The position numbers and the translations under genes are program-made. Positions 11,947 through 23,202 of a stretch of DNA of 35,020 bases are shown here, one piece after another. Position 1 is the stretch's first letter. Every line of letters begins with the position of its first letter. The stretch is from a virus, in the IMG/VR virus record IMGVR_UViG_3300036980_000695, positions 1 to 35,020 of that record; one strand, written 5' to 3'. The notes under the pieces are model-generated. The model made no database searches, was not told where the DNA came from, and saw only the letters and a program-made list of their open reading frames with translations.

Positions 11947-12387
11947 TTATGCCGGGCCCCATGTGCTGTGGTCGCTGTGTTGGTTCCACGTTGTAAAGTT
12001 GCTCGCTAGCTGGGCGTGCCCCGCCTTGACCAGCAGCTCGTTGACGCACTCCCACACGCCGAAGTGCTCGTTCCACGTGTAGACAATGCCCAGGTACCGC
12101 CCAAAGCTGTCGGTCTTGTGTGTTAGCAGGCGCACTGGGCAGTCGTTGTACTGGGTCAGCCATGCCTTGGCAGCCTCGGCGGCCTCGCGCTCCTGGGCGT
12201 TAGCCGCGTGCAGCTCCGGGGCGTCTACACCAAAAAGACGCACGCGCTGGCGTATAACAATACGAAAGCCTGGGTCCACGCTTACGTCCAGCGTGTCGCC
12301 GTCGACAACGTTCGTCACGGTGGCGTGGTCGTACAGCCACCACCGTATCCCAGGGGGCCGCTGTCCGAATGTCAGGATGTTGGTCAT
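11947..12387 (-). CDS. Thermonuclease-like (SNase fold) protein
   Basis: A 146-residue protein of the staphylococcal nuclease family. It shows VVDGDT (about D31), the RLFGVDAPE motif with the catalytic Arg, Asp and Glu (about R50, D55, E59), and DSFGRYLG (about R97), matching the R35, D40, E43 and R87 positions of the classic enzyme. It would cut DNA or RNA with Ca2+ after activation at the catalytic Glu. There is no obvious signal peptide, unlike exported homologues. Its 5' region (12388-12579) holds a large inverted repeat and two small palindromes. Confidence 0.85.
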   Translation of the reverse strand: MTNILTFGQRPPGIRWWLYDHATVTNVVDGDTLDVSVDPGFRIVIRQRVRLFGVDAPELHAANAQEREAAEAAKAWLTQYNDCPVRLLTHKTDSFGRYLGIVYTWNEHFGVWECVNELLVKAGHAQLASNFTTWNQHSDHSTWGPA

Positions 12388-12579
12388 GTTAAAATCCCAA
12401 GAGTTTAAAGTGCCATGTGGCGTGCTGTTGCGGCACTGTGGCATGCGTTTTTGCAACACGCCACACTTCTTTTTAAAAAGATTGGTGGCGTAACCTGTTG
12501 TTACATTGTAAAAAAGCAGCAACACCAGCTACAGCGCGCCACACGAGCCTAACGGCACACAAGGATTGGCACACCCCGC
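12388..12579. promoter_or_regulatory. Divergent control region with inverted repeats
   Basis: It lies between the minus-strand SNase gene and the plus-strand group. It contains nine-base arms TGTGGCGTG (12416-12424) and CACGCCACA (12457-12465) around a loop that can pair further through TTGC and GCAA, followed by the 12-base palindrome CTTTTTAAAAAG (12469-12480) and TTACATTGTAA (12501-12511). The AT-rich centre fits promoters in one or both directions, but no clean -35/-10 pair could be named. Confidence 0.45.
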
Positions 12580-13566: not shown

Positions 13567-14619
13567 TCACCCTAGCTTTCCCGCCACGGATTCGGCAAAT
13601 CCCAGCAGTTGGCCCACGACGCGACCGCCCGCGTGCCCGCGCAACGACTCGGCGCCGTTGGCCACTACGTGTCGGCTCGGTGGCTCGGCCAGTTGCTGGG
13701 CCAGTTCGGTTGGCCCGCTCACTGCCGTGCAGTTGACACCGTCCTGCATGGTGTCGTCGTGGTCCAGCAGCCAGTCGCGGGCCACAATAAGGTGGCAGCC
13801 TGCCTCCCACGCCTCCAGAAAGGTGTACTGCGTCCCACCACCGTCGCCAGAAATCTTGCTTAGGTCCACCATATAGCGGTAGCCCTTGGCGATCTCGACG
13901 GCGGCTCCCCAATGCCGTGGAAACTGGCCGCAATAGTGCCTGTCCCACGTGGGGTCCACCTTGAAAACCTTATGGTGGCAGTACAGGCGGTTCATTGCCC
14001 CGTAGATGTCGACGGCAAACTGGCCCTGGCCCGCGCCGTCCAGCTCGGCGTTGGCACCAGCTATCACGTGGGTTTGCTTGTCCCAGTCGAGGCGGCTCAG
14101 GGCGCAGGCATTCTGCCGCTGGAAGTAGCGGGGCTGTTCGTCGCCGCCAACAAGGTCGCCAGACGTCACGTATGGGTGCGGCACAAAGGCGGCCTCGATG
14201 CCGTGGCGGTGCAGGGCCGGAACATTCGCCTTGCGGATAGCCACCACCCCGACCGACCGCTGCTTGGCCACGGTCAACAGCCCGTCGCGCATTTCGGTCG
14301 GGTCGTGTACCACAAGCAGCCCCCCTCGCTTCAGCACGGCGGCCAATGCCGTCGTGTGGTGCTTGTCGGCGCAGGTGACGATGTTCACCTCGGCGCCGGC
14401 GGCAGCGGCGCTGATGCCGGCCATCCCTATAAGGCGCGACTGTAGGCCGCCAGACCACGGCTTATAGACCTTGGCTGTCGCCGCACCGAGGCGGTATAGG
14501 TTCACGGCGAAACCGGCCTGCGCTAAGGCGCGGCACAGGTGAACGGTGTACGACACCCAGCCCCCGTAAACGGGCTTCGCCAGATACCACAGGTTGACAG
14601 TGCCCTTGGGCTTATTCAT
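13567..14619 (-). CDS. GT-B glycosyltransferase (GT1/GT4-like)
   Basis: A 350-residue protein with GT-B features: a glycine-rich acceptor-side loop near the start (KPVYGGWVSYTVHLCRAL), a central domain junction with SRLDWDKQTH, and a nucleotide-sugar-binding C-terminal half with GGGTQYTFLEAWEAGCHLIV, where the two Glu of the E-x7-E type helix and the EAWEAG motif are expected. It would move a sugar from an NDP-sugar to an acceptor. GGAGA lies before the ATG. It is the last gene of the operon with the dioxygenase and the GT-A enzyme, so modified DNA bases, or a sugar already on them, are the likely acceptor; a surface glycan is the alternative. Confidence 0.8.
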   Translation of the reverse strand: MNKPKGTVNLWYLAKPVYGGWVSYTVHLCRALAQAGFAVNLYRLGAATAKVYKPWSGGLQSRLIGMAGISAAAAGAEVNIVTCADKHHTTALAAVLKRGGLLVVHDPTEMRDGLLTVAKQRSVGVVAIRKANVPALHRHGIEAAFVPHPYVTSGDLVGGDEQPRYFQRQNACALSRLDWDKQTHVIAGANAELDGAGQGQFAVDIYGAMNRLYCHHKVFKVDPTWDRHYCGQFPRHWGAAVEIAKGYRYMVDLSKISGDGGGTQYTFLEAWEAGCHLIVARDWLLDHDDTMQDGVNCTAVSGPTELAQQLAEPPSRHVVANGAESLRGHAGGRVVGQLLGFAESVAGKLG

Positions 14620-14649
14620 CGTTCGTTTCTCCAGTGGTATTGCCGGCGT

Positions 14650-14898
14650 CTACGTTTTTTTACGGCCAGGTCCATGCGGCCTCGGCTTCTTGCGTGCAAA
14701 GGTGGGCGGCTTTTCAATCGGCGTGATGTTGGGTGGCGTGCGGTGCAGAACCACCCAGTCGGTGGCGCGGCGGTCGAAGATGGTCATCTCGCCCATGACC
14801 TCGCCCGTGCGCACGATAAGATAGCACCACCGGGTCGGCCCCCAGGCCTCGCGGCGCAGCCAACGGGCGCCCGTCTGTATGGCGTGTTCATACGTCAC
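14650..14898 (-). CDS. Small protein with DUF2829/Tad2-like pattern
   Basis: An 82-residue protein from a GTG start with GGAGG about ten bases upstream, overlapping the radical SAM gene by 11 bases. The order YEHAIQTGARWLRREAWG, a strand-rich middle, then DRRATDWVVL mirrors the small phage domain of DUF2829 (EA-I-G-x-RR-W ... A-(D/T)-DWEV), the family that includes the Thoeris inhibitor Tad2. The C-terminus is basic and proline-rich (KPPTFARKKPRPHGPGRKK), unlike Tad2, and could bind DNA. The call rests on motifs alone. Confidence 0.55.
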   Translation of the reverse strand: MTYEHAIQTGARWLRREAWGPTRWCYLIVRTGEVMGEMTIFDRRATDWVVLHRTPPNITPIEKPPTFARKKPRPHGPGRKKT

Positions 14899-15868
14899 AG
14901 GCTGGCTTCCTCCAGTTGCGTGGCGTGGCCGTAGCAACTACGTCCCGCACGGTGGCGGCGTGCTCTGCCGTCGGCTGTGGGAGCTTGGGCAGCAGCCCTG
15001 CGCGAGCGCCTGCCCCCTTGTTGCAGCCCGAGCACGGCGTGAATGCCCGCTGCTTGGCCTGGAGGTAATGGCGGGCCGCCGTGAAGCGAGTGCCCCACCA
15101 GATTTCGTCGAGCGTCTCGCGCATGACGTTGCCGCAAACGTACTCGTGGCCCCAGTCCATGCAACAGATGTTGACGTTGCCGTCGTAGCAGACCGACAGC
15201 TCTCGGAACGGGTTGGTGCAGGTCTTGGCCAGCGGCTCGCCTATCATCGTGCCGTTATTCCCGGCATGGTTGTTGATCACCCGGCTGCCAACCTCGCCGT
15301 CGCGGGCGCCGAGGTCGTCCATGATGATGACGGACTTTTGCAGCTGTCCCTTGCGGTGATGGTTTGCCCACGGGCTGATACCGACCGGTGCCAGGTCGTT
15401 GTAGAAGTCGAGCACCCGCACCTTGTCTGCCGGTAGGGCGCGTATCATCGCCTGCAATTTGGTGCGCTCTGGCTCGTACGTGTCGACGATCAGAAAGTCC
15501 ACGTCTGGCGGGCCATACAGCAGCTCGCTCACGCGGGCGTCCATGCCCGCCTGGGTCTTCATCAGCGCGCGCCCGTTGGTGGTCACCTGGATCTGGGCCT
15601 TCGGCAGGTAGGCGCGGAACACGGCGATCAGCTCGGGGTACCGTGGGTTTGCAAGCGGCTCGCCGTGCATGGCGAACTCGTAGCGTGCGTCTGGCGCCAG
15701 GGCGGCGCACTCCATCGCCGTGCGCTCGGCTATGGCCATGGTCATAAACTTGAAGCCGCCCGGCCCGCTGCGGATGCCATTGAGCCCACAAAAGCTACAC
15801 AGTCGGTTGCAGCCCTCGGCGAGCTCTATCTGTACGGACCACGGTTTCCCAACCTGCTCTGTCTTCAA
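14888..15868 (-). CDS. Radical SAM enzyme with SPASM-type C-terminus
   Basis: A 326-residue protein from a TTG start in a TTGA overlap with the GT-A gene, with GGAGGG eight bases upstream. The cluster motif is C20-x3-C24-x2-C27 (ELAEGCNRLCSFCGLNG), followed by HGEP at about 68-71, the S-adenosylmethionine-binding turn. The C-terminal part has C217, C227, C235/C236, C245, C279 and C282 (CTNPFRELSVCYDG, ICCMDW, YVCGNV, PCSGC), a SPASM-like auxiliary iron-sulfur site. Such enzymes do radical chemistry such as methylation, C-C bond formation or peptide maturation. Its place between two glycosyltransferases suggests it acts on a modified base or sugar. Confidence 0.85.
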   Translation of the reverse strand: MKTEQVGKPWSVQIELAEGCNRLCSFCGLNGIRSGPGGFKFMTMAIAERTAMECAALAPDARYEFAMHGEPLANPRYPELIAVFRAYLPKAQIQVTTNGRALMKTQAGMDARVSELLYGPPDVDFLIVDTYEPERTKLQAMIRALPADKVRVLDFYNDLAPVGISPWANHHRKGQLQKSVIIMDDLGARDGEVGSRVINNHAGNNGTMIGEPLAKTCTNPFRELSVCYDGNVNICCMDWGHEYVCGNVMRETLDEIWWGTRFTAARHYLQAKQRAFTPCSGCNKGAGARAGLLPKLPQPTAEHAATVRDVVATATPRNWRKPACDV

Positions 15869-16665
15869 AGCTTGTACCCTCCTGCTTGTAGTGCCTTCTT
15901 GTACTGGACACGCGGACGCAGGGTGGTCGGCACGCCAGACTGTGGCTTGGCGTCGGCCGCGGCGACGAGGGTAACAAAGTCGGGGTGGAGGGCCCGTAGG
16001 CTCCGCAAGCAACGCTCGTAAAGCGCCTGGTCCCGGTACTGACTGCACCCCCCCGGCGCCTGGCTTTTCTGGTCGTGCATAAAGAGGTTGGAAACCACAT
16101 TGGGGTATCCGCACCGCAACACTTGCAGGGTGAAGTCGATGTCCTCGACAACCTCGCACTCATCTCTCCACTGTGCCTGCGTCAAAAACTCGACGTCAGC
16201 ACGGCGAAACCCGTGCAGCACGCACTGCTTACAGCCGACGTCATAGGGGCGCTGCTTCGTCTGCGCCATGAATCGCATGGCAATTCCACACAGCAGATTG
16301 CCAGCATCCAGCATGGCGTCCAGGTGGGCGAACATGGCGACCGTTTCGTCTGGCCCCTGCTTCGCGGCTTTGCCAGCGGCATCGCGGTACAGGAAACGCA
16401 CGTCGTCGTCGACAAAGTATAGGCGTTCCTGCCCCTTGGTTTGCCCCCAGACCCAGCGGCGCTTGCCGGTCAGGCGCATCGGGTATGGCTCTGGCCAATA
16501 GGTGGCTGTGGCCAGGGTGGGGCTCGTTGCCATGTGCTGCTCCACCTCCTCCGGGGGGCAAACGATGGCCACACGGCTCCGCACGGTTTCGTGCAGGGCG
16601 TGGTAGGTCTGCTGTCTGCCGACCCGCCCCTTGGTAAGAATGAAAATGTCAGGGGCAGCTGTCAC
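15865..16665 (-). CDS. GT-A glycosyltransferase, TET/JBP-associated type
   Basis: A 266-residue protein from a GTG start in a GTGA overlap with the dioxygenase gene. It has an N-terminal ILTKGRVGRQQTYHAL segment, the metal/nucleotide-sugar motif YFVDDDVRF (D86-D88), a central strand region (CGIAMRF, CVLHGFRR), and EDIDFTLQVLRCGYPN (E174, D175). This arrangement is that of the TET/JBP-associated glycosyltransferases described in phages and kinetoplastids, which glycosylate hydroxymethylated pyrimidines (the base J glucosyltransferase is one). The direct neighbour is a TET/JBP dioxygenase, which supports the assignment. The sugar is unknown. Confidence 0.82.
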   Translation of the reverse strand: MTAAPDIFILTKGRVGRQQTYHALHETVRSRVAIVCPPEEVEQHMATSPTLATATYWPEPYPMRLTGKRRWVWGQTKGQERLYFVDDDVRFLYRDAAGKAAKQGPDETVAMFAHLDAMLDAGNLLCGIAMRFMAQTKQRPYDVGCKQCVLHGFRRADVEFLTQAQWRDECEVVEDIDFTLQVLRCGYPNVVSNLFMHDQKSQAPGGCSQYRDQALYERCLRSLRALHPDFVTLVAAADAKPQSGVPTTLRPRVQYKKALQAGGYKL

Positions 16666-17564
16666 GGCAGCTTCTCGGACGGGCGGTTTTTGGCACGTTC
16701 AAGTTCTTCTTCGGCGGTGCCACACTCGAGCATCCCCTTGCGGAAGTAGTGGACAAGCGTGCATCGCTGCGCGTTCTTCGTCATGGGGGTGATGAACGTA
16801 TTGCCGTGTAGGTCGGTCGCGCCGTTGAAAATTATCACGTCGCCCGTATCCAGCGGCACGCCGATCCTGTAGGCGGGCAGCACAAGCACGCCCCCCTTCA
16901 CCTTGCCCTCGCGCACCAGCAGCATGGCGCTCTTGCCGTTGGCAATGTTTCGCCCGTCGCGGTGGTAGGCGGTGCGGTAGTTTTTGTTCACCGTCACGGT
17001 GGTGTACACCGTGTCGGGGATTATAAAATCCTTGCTGCAGTCGGTCGCCAACTCGTTCAGGGCGTCCCAGCTTGGGGTTTCGTAGGCGCGATGCACCTCG
17101 TTCACGGCCTTAATCAGCGGCGTGCAGGCGGCCCAAACCTCGGGGTGTTGCTCGTTAAAGGCGCAGCGGCGGCAGTATGGGATGCGCGGGTAGCGGTCGT
17201 AGAAGCCCATCACCCCACTGGAGATCTGGTCCTGCCGCGGCATCCGCATCGTGTTGCTGTAGGTGCCGTCCAGCTTGCGCTCGTGGATACGCGGCGCAGC
17301 CGCCGCCGTCGACCTGTTGTCGGTCAACGGGCGCCAGTCTTTTATCCCAGCGCGCCAAGCCTGGGCGATAAGCTCCAGCGGGACCCCGCGCTTGACGAGT
17401 GTCAGCACGGTTTCCCCGGTATCAAGGATCACCCGACAGCTGTGGGTCAACAGCTGGTCGTAGTGTGTGTCGTCGGCAAAGACACCCTCCAAATGCGCCA
17501 CGTCCAACGGCGGTCCGTTGTGGACAACATGGGGCAGGTCAACTATTGGCAGCGTCCTTTTCAT
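16662..17564 (-). CDS. TET/JBP-family 2-oxoglutarate/Fe(II) dioxygenase
   Basis: A 300-residue protein with the double-stranded beta-helix core of TET/JBP enzymes: YTTVTVNKNYRTAYHRDG with the H-x-D iron ligands (H201, D203), GGVLVLPAYRIGVPLDTGDV, the distal iron His in DLHGNT (H253), and the 2-oxoglutarate-binding Arg in QRCTLVHYFR (R267). The core occupies residues about 180-280; the first 170 residues are less conserved and hold a CRRC pair. Family members hydroxylate the 5-methyl of 5-methylcytosine or thymine in DNA. GGAG lies five bases before the ATG, which overlaps the ParB-like gene by 26 bases. Confidence 0.88.
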   Translation of the reverse strand: MKRTLPIVDLPHVVHNGPPLDVAHLEGVFADDTHYDQLLTHSCRVILDTGETVLTLVKRGVPLELIAQAWRAGIKDWRPLTDNRSTAAAAPRIHERKLDGTYSNTMRMPRQDQISSGVMGFYDRYPRIPYCRRCAFNEQHPEVWAACTPLIKAVNEVHRAYETPSWDALNELATDCSKDFIIPDTVYTTVTVNKNYRTAYHRDGRNIANGKSAMLLVREGKVKGGVLVLPAYRIGVPLDTGDVIIFNGATDLHGNTFITPMTKNAQRCTLVHYFRKGMLECGTAEEELERAKNRPSEKLP

Positions 17565-18300
17565 GTGCGCTCCTCACGGCACGAGCCACCGTGTCGGTAA
17601 TGTTGTCGGTCTTGTAGGCGTGGCCAAGCGCCGTACACAGGGCAATGAACTCCTTGTGGACTTCTGCCGCAAAGAACAACTGCACCATCTTGACGTGGGC
17701 CGTGTTGCCCCCCGCCTGGGTGAGGTCGCCCAGGGCAGACGGCAGCGGCACAAGCGGGACTGGCCCAGCCGAGCCAGCCGCGTTGGACTCGTCGGTGTCC
17801 ATGCCCCCAACGTCCAGCACGTCCTCGGCTTCCGTGTCGACGTAATATTCTTCGGTAAAGGCGGCTATGTCGATCTCGGGGAAGCGGAAGCTTTCCATCA
17901 GCTCCTCGGCCTGTATGTCGCTCCCCTCAAGGAATTCATACAGCCCGTCCTTCTCCATCTTGCCGTACTGGCTGGTCAGGCTTAGCACCTTGCGCTTGGC
18001 CTCGTTTGCATCAGCCGCCTCGACGAAGCTAACGGGCAGGGCAGGGCACGAGTAGCCCTCGTCGGAAATCATGCGCCGCACCACGCGACACCGCTGGTGG
18101 CCGTTGAGGATGTAGACCTTGTCGCCATTGCGCCATACGCTCACTGGCTCGCTAAAGCCCAGGTCAAGGATCATCCCCTTCATGCGCGTGTAGTCGCTGT
18201 TGCTCAGGCTTTTCAGGTTTCCCTGAAAGTGAATCAGTGACTCGACGGGCAGGTAAGCGGCGCCTTCACACGTCACGCGGATCGAGTTGCTCATAGTCAT
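17539..18300 (-). CDS. ParB-like (ParB/sulfiredoxin N-terminal domain) protein
   Basis: A 253-residue protein with a ParB/Srx domain at residues about 15-100: LPVESLIHFQGNLK, LGFSEPVSVW, YILNGHQRCRVV (GHQR 67-70), the nucleotide-binding motif. The middle is acidic and low in complexity (about 150-185), and the C-terminal 50 residues form a helical domain (VQLFFAAEVHKEFIAL, then a TDTVARAV helix). Proteins of this shape are frequent next to phage terminases and DNA-modification genes; some have CTP/ATP-dependent or nuclease activity. It may guide the modification enzymes or act in packaging. A second ATG at 18294 is possible. Confidence 0.78.
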   Translation of the reverse strand: MTMSNSIRVTCEGAAYLPVESLIHFQGNLKSLSNSDYTRMKGMILDLGFSEPVSVWRNGDKVYILNGHQRCRVVRRMISDEGYSCPALPVSFVEAADANEAKRKVLSLTSQYGKMEKDGLYEFLEGSDIQAEELMESFRFPEIDIAAFTEEYYVDTEAEDVLDVGGMDTDESNAAGSAGPVPLVPLPSALGDLTQAGGNTAHVKMVQLFFAAEVHKEFIALCTALGHAYKTDNITDTVARAVRSAHEKDAANS

Positions 18301-18487
18301 TAGTCTCCAGCTCTTGTGGTCTACTGCACGGCGGTTCGAACGCAGCCCCAGCCATTCTCAACCAGGCGCTAAGGTTCCCCTGGCAGTAGCGGCGGGCCTT
18401 GTCTTGCAAGGCTTTCAGCTCATGCCGGTTAACCTTGACGAGAATCGCCTTGGTTTTAACGATCGATGTGTCTAGATGTCCGCGCAT
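18266..18487 (-). CDS. Ribbon-helix-helix (CopG/MobC-like) protein
   Basis: A 73-residue protein with the pattern of a ribbon-helix-helix DNA-binding protein: a strand KTKAILVKVNRH, a helix ELKALQDKARRYC, a turn and a second helix NLSAWLRMAGAAF. This resembles CopG and relaxosome accessory proteins. It is first in the modification operon and next to the divergent control region, so autoregulation and control of the early/late switch are plausible. No clear ribosome-binding site precedes the ATG at 18487; the message may be leaderless or start further in. Confidence 0.6.
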   Translation of the reverse strand: MRGHLDTSIVKTKAILVKVNRHELKALQDKARRYCQGNLSAWLRMAGAAFEPPCSRPQELETNDYEQLDPRDV

Positions 18488-18547
18488 ATCTATATGGTAT
18501 ATACATGATACGGTGACACGATGTCATGTTCTAGCAGGGGCGGGGCC
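18488..18547. promoter_or_regulatory. Divergent promoter/operator between modification and virion operons
   Basis: A 60-base AT-rich gap between the minus-strand operon and the plus-strand late operon. It holds TATATGGTATATACATG-like sequence with -10-type hexamers on both strands and the dyad ATGA...TCAT (about 18507-18525) around GGTGACACG. It is the only space available for the promoters of both operons. No definite -35 boxes were found. Confidence 0.45.
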
Positions 18548-19108
18548 ATGTCCGAGGAAGAAGAAATCCTACAGCCGAGTGGCTTCGACGCCATTGACGA
18601 AAAGGACAAGGCGCTGATGAAGTACCTGTCCGAGTACCCGGACGCCAGCCTGGCCGACCTGGGCCGAGTGATCGGCATGACGGCGTCTGGCGTCCGCAAA
18701 CGCATGATGCGCCCGGTTTTCCAGAAGTTCCTACGGCAGTTGCGCGAGGGCACCGAAGACATCATCCTGCGGGGCCAGCGGGCGGCGGCCATGACCCTAC
18801 TGCGGCTGACGCGTAGCTCCAACGAAAAGACAGCCCTGGAGGCGTCGCGCATTCTGCTGACGCCGCTGCTTGCCAAGACGACAACGGAAAACAAGACGAC
18901 CAAGGAGTTGATCTTCCGGGCCCAGATTGGAACGCAGGGGCAGCTTCTCCAGGAGGTTATCGACGTGGCGCTACAGGAGGACGCCTCGGGCCGCGAGGGC
19001 GGGGCCCCACTACCGCAGAAGGCCGGCGACCGCCTATTGCAGCAATTGTATGCGCCCATTGAAGACGACGACGACGACGACGACTTCACTAAGGAGCAAA
19101 AGCAATGA
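18548..19108 (+). CDS. Small terminase subunit-like protein
   Basis: A 186-residue protein with an N-terminal homeodomain-like HTH (about residues 20-55: ASLADLGRVIGMTASGVRKRM), a helical middle (LRGQRAAAMTLLRLT, EKTALEASRILLTPLL) and an acidic C-terminus with a run of seven Asp. This is the usual layout of small terminase subunits, which bind the packaging site and stimulate the large subunit. It lies at the head of the late operon with the large terminase two genes on. The ATG at 18548 follows a GGGGCGGGG; an upstream ATG at 18521 is less likely. Confidence 0.75.
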   Translation: MSEEEEILQPSGFDAIDEKDKALMKYLSEYPDASLADLGRVIGMTASGVRKRMMRPVFQKFLRQLREGTEDIILRGQRAAAMTLLRLTRSSNEKTALEASRILLTPLLAKTTTENKTTKELIFRAQIGTQGQLLQEVIDVALQEDASGREGGAPLPQKAGDRLLQQLYAPIEDDDDDDDFTKEQKQ

Positions 19109-19278
19109 AGTACAAATTCCGCGAGGTCTGGGTCAACTACGGCCCTTATGGCGTCGTGCAGGGCGTATACACGACAAAGCTCGATGCTCTGGCCGCCGCC
19201 AAGTACGACACCGTGCGACTGGCCATAAAGCTCAAGGTGGCTGCCAACGAGCCTAAGGAAGGCGCCGCCAAGCCATGA
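19105..19278 (+). CDS. Small hypothetical protein of the packaging module
   Basis: A 57-residue protein starting with an ATGA overlap at the end of the small terminase gene, with AAGGAG eight bases before it. It reads MKYKFREVWVNYGPYG, then a short strand and a helix (KLDALAAAKYDTVRLAIKL) and a Lys/Ala-rich end. The strand-helix layout is common among small phage proteins. Its stop overlaps the ATG of the CsrA-like gene by four bases, which makes the set translationally coupled. Confidence 0.65.
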   Translation: MKYKFREVWVNYGPYGVVQGVYTTKLDALAAAKYDTVRLAIKLKVAANEPKEGAAKP

Positions 19279-19541
19279 CCATGCTTATTATCGGGCTTAA
19301 GCGCGGCGAGTACATACAGATTGGTGACGACATTATCATAGTGGTGAACAGGCCGGATTCCTACGTGAAGCTAGGTATCCAAGCGCCACGCCACTATAAG
19401 ATTAAGCGCCTGGAGCCGCCAAATGATCATAACGGTAAAGACACCAACGCCACACAGCCCCCAGCAGGCGATGGTGATGAACGCCTTCAACACGCCGGGC
19501 CTACTAGAGCTGTGGGTCGCCAACGGGACAAAGAACGGTAA
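19275..19541 (+). CDS. csrA: CsrA/RsmA-like RNA-binding regulator
   Basis: An 88-residue protein whose first 50 residues match CsrA along the whole length: MLIIGLKRGEYIQIGDD, a strand, VKLGIQAPRHYKI, and KRLE. Conserved points are the MLI start, GE and IGD, GI-AP and the RNA-contacting Arg in KIKRLE (R44 of CsrA). CsrA dimers bind GGA motifs near ribosome-binding sites and repress or activate translation. Residues about 51-88 are disordered-looking and are read out of frame through the first 119 bases of the large terminase gene. The ATG overlaps the previous stop (ATGA); an ATG at 19281 gives the classic MLI start. Its target could be host or phage messages. Confidence 0.75.
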   Translation: MTMLIIGLKRGEYIQIGDDIIIVVNRPDSYVKLGIQAPRHYKIKRLEPPNDHNGKDTNATQPPAGDGDERLQHAGPTRAVGRQRDKER

Positions 19542-20871
19542 GTCGATCGGCGCCAGCAGCGCCATGTCGACCAAGTCGTGGGTGACGAAAAACGGCCTAT
19601 ACAGGTGGGTGGCTCCCATCTATGCGCAAAGCAAGGTCGGTCTGCGCTACTGCCAGCGCCTCCTGCCGCCACGGCCATATGTCGTTCCTAACAAAAGCGA
19701 AATGTCCCTAAGCCTTATGCACCAAGGCACGACGCTTGAGTTTTGGCACGGCCAAGACGCTGAAAGCCTTGAGGGCGAGGCTGTTAACGGCTACGTGCTA
19801 GACGAAGTCGCAAAAATGTCTAGCAACATTTACGACTCGGCCTTGACCACCGTTACCATTACGCGGGGGCCGATGATCTGCATCTCGACGCCACGCGGCA
19901 AGAACTGGTTCTACGAAAAATGTATGCGGGCCAAAGAGGAGATGGAGTGGGCCATCAAGCGCGGGCAAGTGCCCAAGCGCATGTTCATCACGGCCCCCAG
20001 CGCCGAGAATCCAAAGGTCCTGCGCGAGGCAATAGACGAGGCGAGGAAGAATCTTCCAGACCGCCTTTTCCGCCAATACTACAATGCGGAATTTGTCGAC
20101 GACGGTGACGTCTTCGGTGGGTTTCGGAACGTACTGTATGGCGACAGAATTACAACCGAAGGGCGCATTGGTTTTTGGATTCTGCCCGACTACCCAGAGG
20201 ATGAAAACCGCCGCGCCGACGTCGAGGTCGTTATAGGCGCCGACTGGGGCAAAAAGAACGACTACACGGTTTTTACGGCATGGGACATTAAGAAGCGCAA
20301 GATGATCGGCTTCATGCGTTTCCGTGGCTCCACCTACATACACGCCATCAAATGCCTCATCTGGTTTTCCGCTCGTTTCCGCAAGGTCCACATGATCCGC
20401 CACGATAAAACGGGGCTTGGCGAGGTGATTGATGAAATGCTCGACAAAACGGAGCTGCCGTTCGAGGGCACCATATTCACCAACTACCTCAAGTCGGAGA
20501 TGGTCAACGGCCTGATGGTCGCCGTCGAGCAGCGTTCGGTCGAGCTGCCAAATTGGGGCGAGATGGTCCACGAGATGGACAACTACGAAGTGACGACAAG
20601 CGAAATAGGAAACATGAGGTATTCTTCCCCGGCGGGCCTGCACGACGACATCATCTCAAGCATGATTCTAGGGTGGGCCTGTGCCCAGGAATATATGGAG
20701 AGCGACATGGCGGTGCGCTTCGTAGAAGACCTGCCAAGCCGCAGGCCAAAGCAGGACCCATGGGTGAGGCAAATCCAAGAGGAGCTGGAAGACGGTCACC
20801 CCGGCTGGTACGACATTGAGAAGCCAAAGAGATTCGAGATTTTCCCTGGTATCATTCCAGCAAGAGGGTAG
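19423..20871 (+). CDS. terL: Large terminase subunit
   Basis: A 482-residue packaging ATPase-nuclease. The ATPase part has a Walker A variant NGTKNGKS (34-41), and Walker B VNGYVLDEV (D127, E128), followed by CISTPRG. The RNase H-like nuclease domain begins near VVIGADWGKKNDYTVF, with acidic residues there and in LHDDIISSM. Start 19423 has GGAG seven bases upstream but lies inside the CsrA-like frame (119-base overlap). It cuts concatemeric DNA and drives it into the prohead through the portal. The Walker A is slightly atypical (GTKNGKS), as is common in terminases. Confidence 0.9.
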   Translation: MIITVKTPTPHSPQQAMVMNAFNTPGLLELWVANGTKNGKSIGASSAMSTKSWVTKNGLYRWVAPIYAQSKVGLRYCQRLLPPRPYVVPNKSEMSLSLMHQGTTLEFWHGQDAESLEGEAVNGYVLDEVAKMSSNIYDSALTTVTITRGPMICISTPRGKNWFYEKCMRAKEEMEWAIKRGQVPKRMFITAPSAENPKVLREAIDEARKNLPDRLFRQYYNAEFVDDGDVFGGFRNVLYGDRITTEGRIGFWILPDYPEDENRRADVEVVIGADWGKKNDYTVFTAWDIKKRKMIGFMRFRGSTYIHAIKCLIWFSARFRKVHMIRHDKTGLGEVIDEMLDKTELPFEGTIFTNYLKSEMVNGLMVAVEQRSVELPNWGEMVHEMDNYEVTTSEIGNMRYSSPAGLHDDIISSMILGWACAQEYMESDMAVRFVEDLPSRRPKQDPWVRQIQEELEDGHPGWYDIEKPKRFEIFPGIIPARG

Positions 20872-20877
20872 CCCAAC

Positions 20878-23202
20878 ATGGAAGTAAGCGGAACAGGCCC
20901 CGTTGCACCAGCCAAACGGCGTGATGAAGACGACGGCGAGGTTTTAAGCTTCGGTGCTACCAAAGGCTATGAACTCGCTGATTTCCAGTCGGACGAGTTA
21001 AACCAGGGCATGTGGGACGCCGAGATCAAGGCGTTCATGGACACCTACACCCTAAAGGGCCTCTTCTACCACGAGGACTGGGTCTACATTCTTGTCGACA
21101 TGGTGGCAGACCACGTCGCTATGTCGCCCCTGTTGGTCCACGAAAGAAAGCTTGTCGGCAAGCGGCAGTACGTCAACACCATTGGCGGCCACGAGCTGAA
21201 CGCACTTTTCGAGGAGCCCAACGAGTTCCAGGAGTATTACCCGTGGATGTACAACTATACGGTTGAAAACTGTTTGATGGGCAACACCATCCAGTGGCGG
21301 TCCAAGCGCCTCGACCAGATGTACATCCTGCCAACCGAAACGGTCCTGCTAAAGTTTGCTGGAACTGGGCGGATCGAGGCATATCAGGTCAATACGGCCA
21401 ACGGCTTTGCTGCCGAAAACATCCAGGATGGGATGGAGTTCAAGCCATCTGAAATCTGGCATCAGCGCCGCCCAAACCCATCCAGCCTCGTGTGGGGGCT
21501 GAGTCCGTTTATCCCAAATCGCAAGAGCGTCCTGTTTAACAGGTACACCCAGGACTACCTGAATAGCTTCTACCTCAAGGGGGCCACACCCGGCCTGGTC
21601 CTCAAGATGGAAAAGAACGTATCCGAGGACAGCGCCATGCGCTTCCTCCGATCGTTCGAGGTGGCGCACACCGGGCGCAGGAATATGCGCCGCACCATCA
21701 TGCTGCCCAAGGGCGTTGGCATCGAGACCATCACGCCAAACATTGGCGACCAGAAGCTGGTCGAAATGATCAACAGCAACCGCGAGAAGATTCTCAATAT
21801 CTTGCGGGTACCCAAGCACGCCCTGAGCCTTGCTGAGAATGGGTCGCTCGGCAGCGAGGAGCACAAGGTAGCCTTAAAGTTCTTCTACACGTCGGCCATC
21901 ATCCCCATCCAAAAGAAGATCGCAGCTTTCCTAACGCGGCAGTTCCGCAAGGAGCGCCGCCTTAAGGAAAACGAATTCCTTGCGTTCGACAACAGCGGCG
22001 TAGAAGCCCTGAAAGAGGACGAGCTCAAGCGTGCCCAGCTTGGCCAGGCCCTGCGCGAGCAGTGGACCCTAAATGAGATCCGCCAGGAAATTCACGACAT
22101 GGAGCCAATCGAGGGTGGCGATGCCTACCCCGGCTCCACAGGGAATAGCACTCAGCCAAACATTCCAAACAGCGGCACCGTCATTGCGCCGGACGTAGAG
22201 GAAGATGGCGAGGAAGAGGAGCCGGAACAGGCCGAGGAAGAAGATGACGAAGAAGAGGAAGAGGACGACACGGCGAAGGGCCTGCGCGTTGCCCGCATCA
22301 AGATCATCCACGATAAATTTGGCGACGCAATAGCGGCAAGCAGCCAGGGCATGGAAGCCGCTATCGACGGCAACGACGGCGAGGTGACGGCCATCTGGCT
22401 TGCCGCCTATGCCTCCATGGCGGCCAAGGCTGTAGGGATCGTGAAGAACGAGCTGAACAAAATGCCAGCCAAGGAAAAGGCTGACGACGACGTGCCAACT
22501 CGCCGACCAAAGCGGGCAAAGCTGAAGGCAAAGCTCGACGACGAGTTTTCAAAAGATGCCGCAGCCGTTGGCGAGCGCCACACCGAGCAGTTGATTGGCA
22601 CCCTGGAAGATGGCTATACGCTTGGCCTAAACACCATCTTCGACGGGCCAACCAGAGATGAGGTTGAGGTGCTGCGCCTGCGCGATGCAGCCGGGCGCCG
22701 TCAGCTACTGATGGCACGGGGCCTAAAGACATTCTCCGGCGTTTCGTCGGAGGCAACGGAAGCCATCCTCGACATAATTGCCAATGGCGTCAAAAAGCAG
22801 AAAACCGTCAAGGGTATAGCTGGCGAAATCGTAGCTCGCTTTGCCGAGCTAGGGCGTTCCAAAGCCGAGACGATTGCCAGGACTGAGATCCTCACCGCGG
22901 TATCAATCGGCAAGGCGGCGGCCATGCAGAATGCGGGCGAGGTGATTGACGATTTGGTAAAAGTCTGGATTACAGCCGGTGACCTGCGGGTTCGCGGCAC
23001 GCCAGGCGGCACCCAAAAGAGCAGGGGCAACCACTTCAAGCTCCAGGGCGATGTTGTGCCTGCCAACGAGCCGTTCGATAATGGGCTATTCTACCCGCGA
23101 GATCCGAAGTCAAAGAAGCCACACGAGGTCATTAACTGCCGGTGCGATTTTCTAGTCGTTTCTGCCCGTGACTTAGGCCAACTGAACATTCCGAAGAATT
23201 GA
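20878..23202 (+). CDS. Portal protein fused to a MuF-type head morphogenesis domain
   Basis: A 774-residue protein. Residues about 50-420 are an HK97-type portal: GLFYHEDWVYILVDMV, WGLSPFIPNRKSVL, LNSFYLKGATPGLVLKM, and ILRVPKHALSLAE. A Glu/Asp-rich linker lies at about 440-465. The C-terminal 250 residues carry the Mu gpF/SPP1 gp7 domain, with the typical FAELGRSKAETIARTEILTA and the closing INCRCDF. Most phages keep these as two genes; here they form one chain, which ties portal stem and minor head protein. Start ATG 20878 follows the terminase stop by six bases, with GAGGG upstream. Confidence 0.88.
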   Translation: MEVSGTGPVAPAKRRDEDDGEVLSFGATKGYELADFQSDELNQGMWDAEIKAFMDTYTLKGLFYHEDWVYILVDMVADHVAMSPLLVHERKLVGKRQYVNTIGGHELNALFEEPNEFQEYYPWMYNYTVENCLMGNTIQWRSKRLDQMYILPTETVLLKFAGTGRIEAYQVNTANGFAAENIQDGMEFKPSEIWHQRRPNPSSLVWGLSPFIPNRKSVLFNRYTQDYLNSFYLKGATPGLVLKMEKNVSEDSAMRFLRSFEVAHTGRRNMRRTIMLPKGVGIETITPNIGDQKLVEMINSNREKILNILRVPKHALSLAENGSLGSEEHKVALKFFYTSAIIPIQKKIAAFLTRQFRKERRLKENEFLAFDNSGVEALKEDELKRAQLGQALREQWTLNEIRQEIHDMEPIEGGDAYPGSTGNSTQPNIPNSGTVIAPDVEEDGEEEEPEQAEEEDDEEEEEDDTAKGLRVARIKIIHDKFGDAIAASSQGMEAAIDGNDGEVTAIWLAAYASMAAKAVGIVKNELNKMPAKEKADDDVPTRRPKRAKLKAKLDDEFSKDAAAVGERHTEQLIGTLEDGYTLGLNTIFDGPTRDEVEVLRLRDAAGRRQLLMARGLKTFSGVSSEATEAILDIIANGVKKQKTVKGIAGEIVARFAELGRSKAETIARTEILTAVSIGKAAAMQNAGEVIDDLVKVWITAGDLRVRGTPGGTQKSRGNHFKLQGDVVPANEPFDNGLFYPRDPKSKKPHEVINCRCDFLVVSARDLGQLNIPKN

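Follow-up and report, generated by a model that had tools for sequence, protein, structure and literature searches.

A divergent, shortened CsrA-family gene lying against the large terminase gene of a virus record

An open reading frame (ORF) of 88 aa is situated between the two terminase genes of an uncultured phage, whose virus record (35,020 bases) was analysed over its whole length and is called the window here. What kind of protein does this ORF encode, does its long overlap with the large terminase gene carry any meaning, and on which mRNAs might its product act? The + strand order of genes is terS, an ORF of 57 aa, csrA, terL, portal and then the head genes, and the features of this region are as follows.

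18548..19108, +, terS-like gene (small terminase subunit), preceding the insert; AsnC-type HTH PF13404 and a tblastn match
19105..19278, +, 57-aa ORF between terS and csrA, function unassigned; from sequence, with an ATGA overlap at each end
19255..19262, +, possible csrA ribosome-binding site AAGGAAGG, seen by eye, 12 bases before the ATG at 19275
19275-19541, +, csrA ORF, 88 aa; its start overlaps the stop of the 57-aa ORF (ATGA, 19275-19278)
19275..19415, +, csrA core, residues 1-47; from PF02599, PHROG, PDB sequences and GC by codon position
19416..19541, +, csrA tail and stop codon, in another frame over the terL start; no family match
19412..19415, +, likely terL ribosome-binding site GGAG within the last csrA core codons, 7 bases before the terL ATG, with GGA at -11
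19423..20871, +, terL (terminase large subunit); phrog_2 E 4e-33, PF03237
20878-23202, +, portal, directly after terL in gene order

The terS-like gene gave no match in a PHROG search and was recognised by tblastn to the ORF directly preceding terL in the related locus L116 (37% identity, E 2e-23). Its stop is joined to the start of the 57-aa ORF by an ATGA overlap, and the ATGA coupling proposed for the csrA start in the initial annotation was found where the 57-aa ORF stops. Neither Pfam nor PHROG gives a match for the 57-aa ORF, whose GC by codon position (0.61/0.39/0.77) resembles that of phage genes. Translation of csrA could begin at 19275 or at a second ATG, 19281, which coincides with the start of the profile match. 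The position assigned to the terL start is sound, with no earlier in-frame start available and with M1 aligned to M1 of the related loci L001 (48% identical) and L116 (54.6%). An Rfam search across the window matched no family, and promoter and terminator scans of positions 18000-21000 returned no more than in shuffles.

The csrA ORF is the sole match to Pfam CsrA PF02599 in the whole record (residues 3-47, E 2e-12, 47.3 bits against a cut-off of 27). It is also matched by PHROG CsrA-like families (phrog_9500, E 4.6e-7) and matches the sequences of solved CsrA structures (5dmb_D, E 4.1e-5). In a search of the six-frame ORFs of at least 30 aa of the window with an HMM made from 36 other CsrA sequences, the csrA ORF scored E 1.1e-8, and the match is beyond chance because the next-best ORF reached only E 3.7. 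The family profiles, R44 and the core motifs thus bear out the proposal of a CsrA-like regulator, and the motifs listed for it (MLI, GE, IGD, GI-AP, KRLE) are correct. The description of the ORF as near full-length holds for the beta-strand core and fails for the helix region, the match ending before the terL start. Close relatives were not found: the window CsrA gave 15 pattern matches in viral_contigs and a two-row alignment (A3) gave 148, none confirmed in either case, and no relative was detected among phage records at E 0.01. Relaxing the threshold to E 10 brings up weak matches to phage csrA genes (79 records in one search, 90 in another). Judged from its sequence, the csrA ORF is a divergent member of a known family of which phage-borne representatives have already been described.

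Residues were compared in an alignment with 36 CsrA from virus records (37 rows), using canonical CsrA numbering. All seven invariant columns (L2, I3, G33, A36, P37, R44 and E46) are kept in the csrA ORF. L4 and R44 are named as particularly critical for CsrA RNA binding in an excerpt of an earlier report (PMC7652899), and the initial annotation had singled out the same two for an alignment check; R44 is retained and L4 is not, although its replacement by Ile is conservative. Position 6 is occupied by Leu in place of R6. The core is followed by Pro-Pro-Asn-Asp, where most other CsrA have an EEIY-like sequence at the start of the helix, and a proline/charged tail replaces the usual C-terminal helix region. 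Cellular CsrA/RsmA proteins (Geobacillus CsrA, 5dmb; Pseudomonas RsmE, 2jpp) share the core strands, IGD, GI-AP and R44 with the window CsrA. However, the latter differs from them by the Leu for R6, by one residue fewer before the G-N-Q turn and by the lack of the helix region, the tail being taken from the sequence of another gene.

AlphaFold2 modelling of a single chain gave five strands, no helix and a mean pLDDT of 58, mostly below 50 from residue 52, whereas a canonical CsrA from a virus record, run as a control with a nearly identical alignment, reached 82. Modelling thus leaves the fold unconfirmed, and the low value is mild evidence against a standard CsrA; a single-chain prediction is a weak test for an intertwined dimer. 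A Foldseek search with this low-confidence model returned no match at E 0.001. A 49-residue chain named Truncated-CsrA has been solved (5z38_E), which suggests by analogy that the helix may be dispensable for CsrA folding.

Does the gene belong to the group of viruses to which the window is related? Capsid and portal scans of IMG/VR yielded 31 loci in 30 related records, several of them short fragments and six (L115, L132-L136) only distant relatives. None of the 30 records has a PF02599 match at E <=1; therefore, csrA appears to have been gained or retained in the window lineage only. The nearest relative found, L116, has a terL 54.6% identical and lacks csrA, and a genome scan with terL gave only distant matches, in four assemblies (26-31%). 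The terminase junction was compared in the 14 loci that show the terL start, omitting L113, L114, L118, L123, L126 and L129 (partial or unaligned N termini) and L106, L122 and L131 (further copies of the same record). In seven of these (L116, L121, L001, L120, L109, L110 and L128) the ORF in the place of terS ends -2 to +29 bases from the terL start, terS identity being supported by tblastn only in L116, L120, L109, L110 and L127 and given elsewhere by position. L117, L124, L125 and L015 carry different small ORFs at the junction and L127 a 2.2-kb insert; the arrangement is ambiguous in L119 and L130. The terS-terL junction thus seems open to cargo genes, with csrA apparently the one specific to the window lineage.

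Between terS and terL of L127 (positions 1413-2898 of that locus) lie two ORFs, one of 352 aa that appears glycosyltransferase-like by eye and one of 109 aa similar to staphylococcal-type nucleases. An SNase homologue (PF00565) also occurs in the window, at 11947-12525 on the strand opposite to terS/terL. Upstream of terS/terL, L117 (1318-3148) and L124 (1359-3215) each show two lipoprotein-like ORFs with CxxCH-type motifs, seen by eye, which look host-type and might hint at the host group.

The overlap of csrA with terL is exactly 119 bases (19423-19541) and out of frame, and it covers the last ~40 residues of csrA, just as had been annotated. The last base of the csrA core lies 8 bases upstream of the terL ATG, and the TAA stop of csrA (19539-19541) spans the GGT AAG codons (Gly39-Lys40) of the GTKNGKS Walker A-like motif of terL. 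The overlapped residues are not CsrA-like; no csrA stop codon precedes terL, so the tail of ~40 residues is terL read out of frame. When terL codons were drawn synonymously from the phage's own usage, the csrA frame stayed open for at least 38 codons in 29% of 20,000 trials (P = 0.29). The same frame is open for at least 36 codons in four of the 14 related loci, all without csrA (L116, L117, L124 and L119), a count that includes one apparently close pair (L117 and L124) and that depends on our choice of start codon where there was more than one candidate. In L116 it is open for 38 codons and closes at the same place (terL bases 117-119). GC at the three codon positions of the csrA core (0.54/0.29/0.69) is similar to that of terL (0.54/0.40/0.73) and portal (0.60/0.38/0.72), and the tail read in the csrA frame (0.78/0.53/0.42) has the terL pattern shifted. 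The ratio of identity in terL residues 1-39 to identity in the remainder is 1.01 between the window and L116, against a mean of 0.92 (sd 0.14) in the 91 pairs without the window; these residues are as conserved as expected, with no visible dual-coding constraint.

The suggestion that the tail is simply passenger sequence is thus strongly supported by the resampling, the open frame of L116 and the shifted GC pattern, and on this sequence evidence the tail is best read as the terL start in another frame. As to the companion claim that it is unusual to overlap a conserved ATPase region, the resampling and the relatives indicate that no selection is required here; the long overlap looks fortuitous and set by the position of the next stop codon. 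The alternative that the 40-residue tail is functional and that selection maintains the overlap has in its favour the 38 codons open over a conserved region. However, all four observations above, namely the resampling, the frame and stop position of the csrA-less L116, the ordinary conservation of terL residues 1-39 and the shifted terL composition, speak against it, and we regard it as highly improbable.

With a canonical phage CsrA as query, 257 places were confirmed; the best 80 were retained, a sample that leans to Pseudomonas-like csrA. Among these 80, terL (phrog_2) was found in 30 of 50 records searched, and in these 30 csrA-bearing IMG/VR records csrA and terL are separated by at least 3,959 bases (median 13,556). 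No other csrA touches terL among the virus records and annotated phage loci inspected, and searches of open-licence PMC papers brought up no csrA overlapping terL. Bcep22-like phages (BcepMigl gp50, JC1 gp47) likewise have a divergent csrA in a tailed-phage late operon, according to an excerpt of their description (PMC9144972). In BcepMigl, however, it lies between the genes for portal and major capsid, with no terL overlap such as that of the window csrA. In Klebsiella phage UHKP, as far as the consulted portion of the report goes, terL is ORF 11 and a CsrA-like gene ORF 15 (PMC12989515); therefore, nearness of csrA to late genes is not unique. Pseudomonas phages F116 and phi297 and Vibrio phages also carry CsrA-family regulators, which, unlike the window csrA, have a canonical MLILTR start and lie away from terL. 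PTXU04 gp28, likened here by description, is another phage csrA homologue, and part of the published account states that its knockdown leads to smaller plaques (PMC11879866). Extracts of two further studies report csrA in 30 of 2,517 phages in one survey (PMC7366521), and RsmA homologues in GenBank and IMG/VR phages for which host manipulation, CRISPR-Cas included, was proposed (PMC8450108).

Three database matches were discarded after a closer look, two of them (L008 and L011) filed as phage records but resembling bacterial chromosome in gene content. MT837916.1 (L008) reads as a bacterial fragment with csrA before a flagellin gene, and was nonetheless kept in alignments A2 and A3; CAKLQH020000034.1 (L011) is host-like DNA with alaS and thrA beside csrA; and the match in Pseudoalteromonas PY6 (L013) is antisense to an annotated gene. 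Plasmid matches are by number mostly from Pseudomonas (124 of 139 records), and the lowest listed E-values belong to Pseudarthrobacter and Rossellomorea, by which no host is named. A Planctomycetota MAG (the genome of L019) has 14 CsrA matches over the Pfam cut-off, an unusually large number of paralogues.

On which mRNAs might the protein act? The initial annotation had suggested that the phage could time its own late genes or reprogramme host translation. A phage CsrA that binds GGA at its own late ribosome-binding sites, such as the GGAG of terL, would time packaging and head translation, and the location of that GGAG inside the 3' end of csrA agrees with such a role. Leaders of 20 late genes (-60 to +12) were compared with shuffles. 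ANGGA is slightly raised (10 against 6.6 expected, P 0.11), which is not significant, and GGA shows no excess (22 against 25.3). Few GGA are thus available as second sites for bridging, with 3 counted upstream of the -20 region where 8.5 were expected. This shortage needs no special cause because the coding sequences of both strands use GGA less than expected (ratio 0.75 late, 0.76 early). Moreover, the terL GGAG is predicted to be paired rather than looped, in a leader that folds no better than shuffles (z 0.06). Timing of its own late genes accordingly finds no support here, and we consider such self-regulation quite unlikely. Host mRNAs are the likelier targets given the lack of GGA excess in late leaders, and reprogramming of host translation is plausible by analogy with published work on other phage CsrA/RsmA homologues.

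We therefore favour, with somewhat better than even confidence, a phage-borne divergent CsrA-family regulator, carried as junction cargo and likely acting on host mRNAs. The gene would have been gained between terS and terL and would be expressed with the packaging operon through the overlapping stop and start codons. Its short RNA-binding core is predicted to form the usual intertwined dimer and to bind GGA-containing mRNA leaders, and the protein would most likely alter translation or stability of host mRNAs in infection. We infer expression, dimer, GGA binding, host targets and timing alike. The family match, R44 with the other invariant columns, the phage-like GC of the core, the overlapping start codons, the restriction of csrA to this lineage among the related records and the passenger tail support this reading; for host targets in particular, the late leaders without GGA excess do so, as do the published proposals and the single knockdown phenotype for other phage csrA genes. 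The Leu at position 6, Pro-Pro instead of EEIY, the pLDDT of 58 against 82 and the absence of a close homologue weigh against it, and the host may be without CsrA targets altogether.

Loss of R6 and replacement of the helix region, with core strands and R44 kept, would also suit a reduced protein that mainly mixes into host CsrA dimers and thereby weakens host CsrA; part of the published work on E. coli reports that full repression is no longer reached by R44A dimers in which one surface is defective. However, R44 would be expected to be the first loss in an interfering form and is kept here, and we regard this explanation as unlikely. An extension of it, in which a minimal helix-less CsrA, its last core codons containing the terL ribosome-binding site, interferes with host CsrA during infection and terL translation is coupled to csrA translation as a dosage link, appears improbable. 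The single occurrence in the clade, the divergence and the missing stop before terL could instead point to a captured csrA in decay, deprived of its original stop and helix and of no further use to the phage. Its core, however, is intact and phage-like in composition by codon position, with every invariant column kept and tight start overlaps, and such decay is rather improbable.

With the overlap read as fortuitous, the case is largely ordinary: both the family and this kind of carrier are known. Its contribution to the phage CsrA already on record is a divergent, shortened member, whose placement against terL did not recur in the 30 csrA-bearing virus records with measured distance. It also provides a worked case in which no selection is needed to explain a long overlap, out of frame, with the start of a conserved ATPase. 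Should the protein be functional, it would lend itself to testing how little of CsrA a phage needs.

A block on the - strand of the window (13567-18300) looks like a DNA base-modification cluster and comprises the following features.

13567-14619, -, glycosyltransferase-like ORF, by eye; no PHROG match
about 14888-15964, -, radical SAM/SPASM protein (PF04055/PF13186)
15865-16665, -, match to beta-glucosyl-HMC-alpha-glucosyltransferase (phrog_842)
16662-17564, -, TET/JBP-type oxygenase (PF12851)
17539-18300, -, ParB-like protein (phrog_723)
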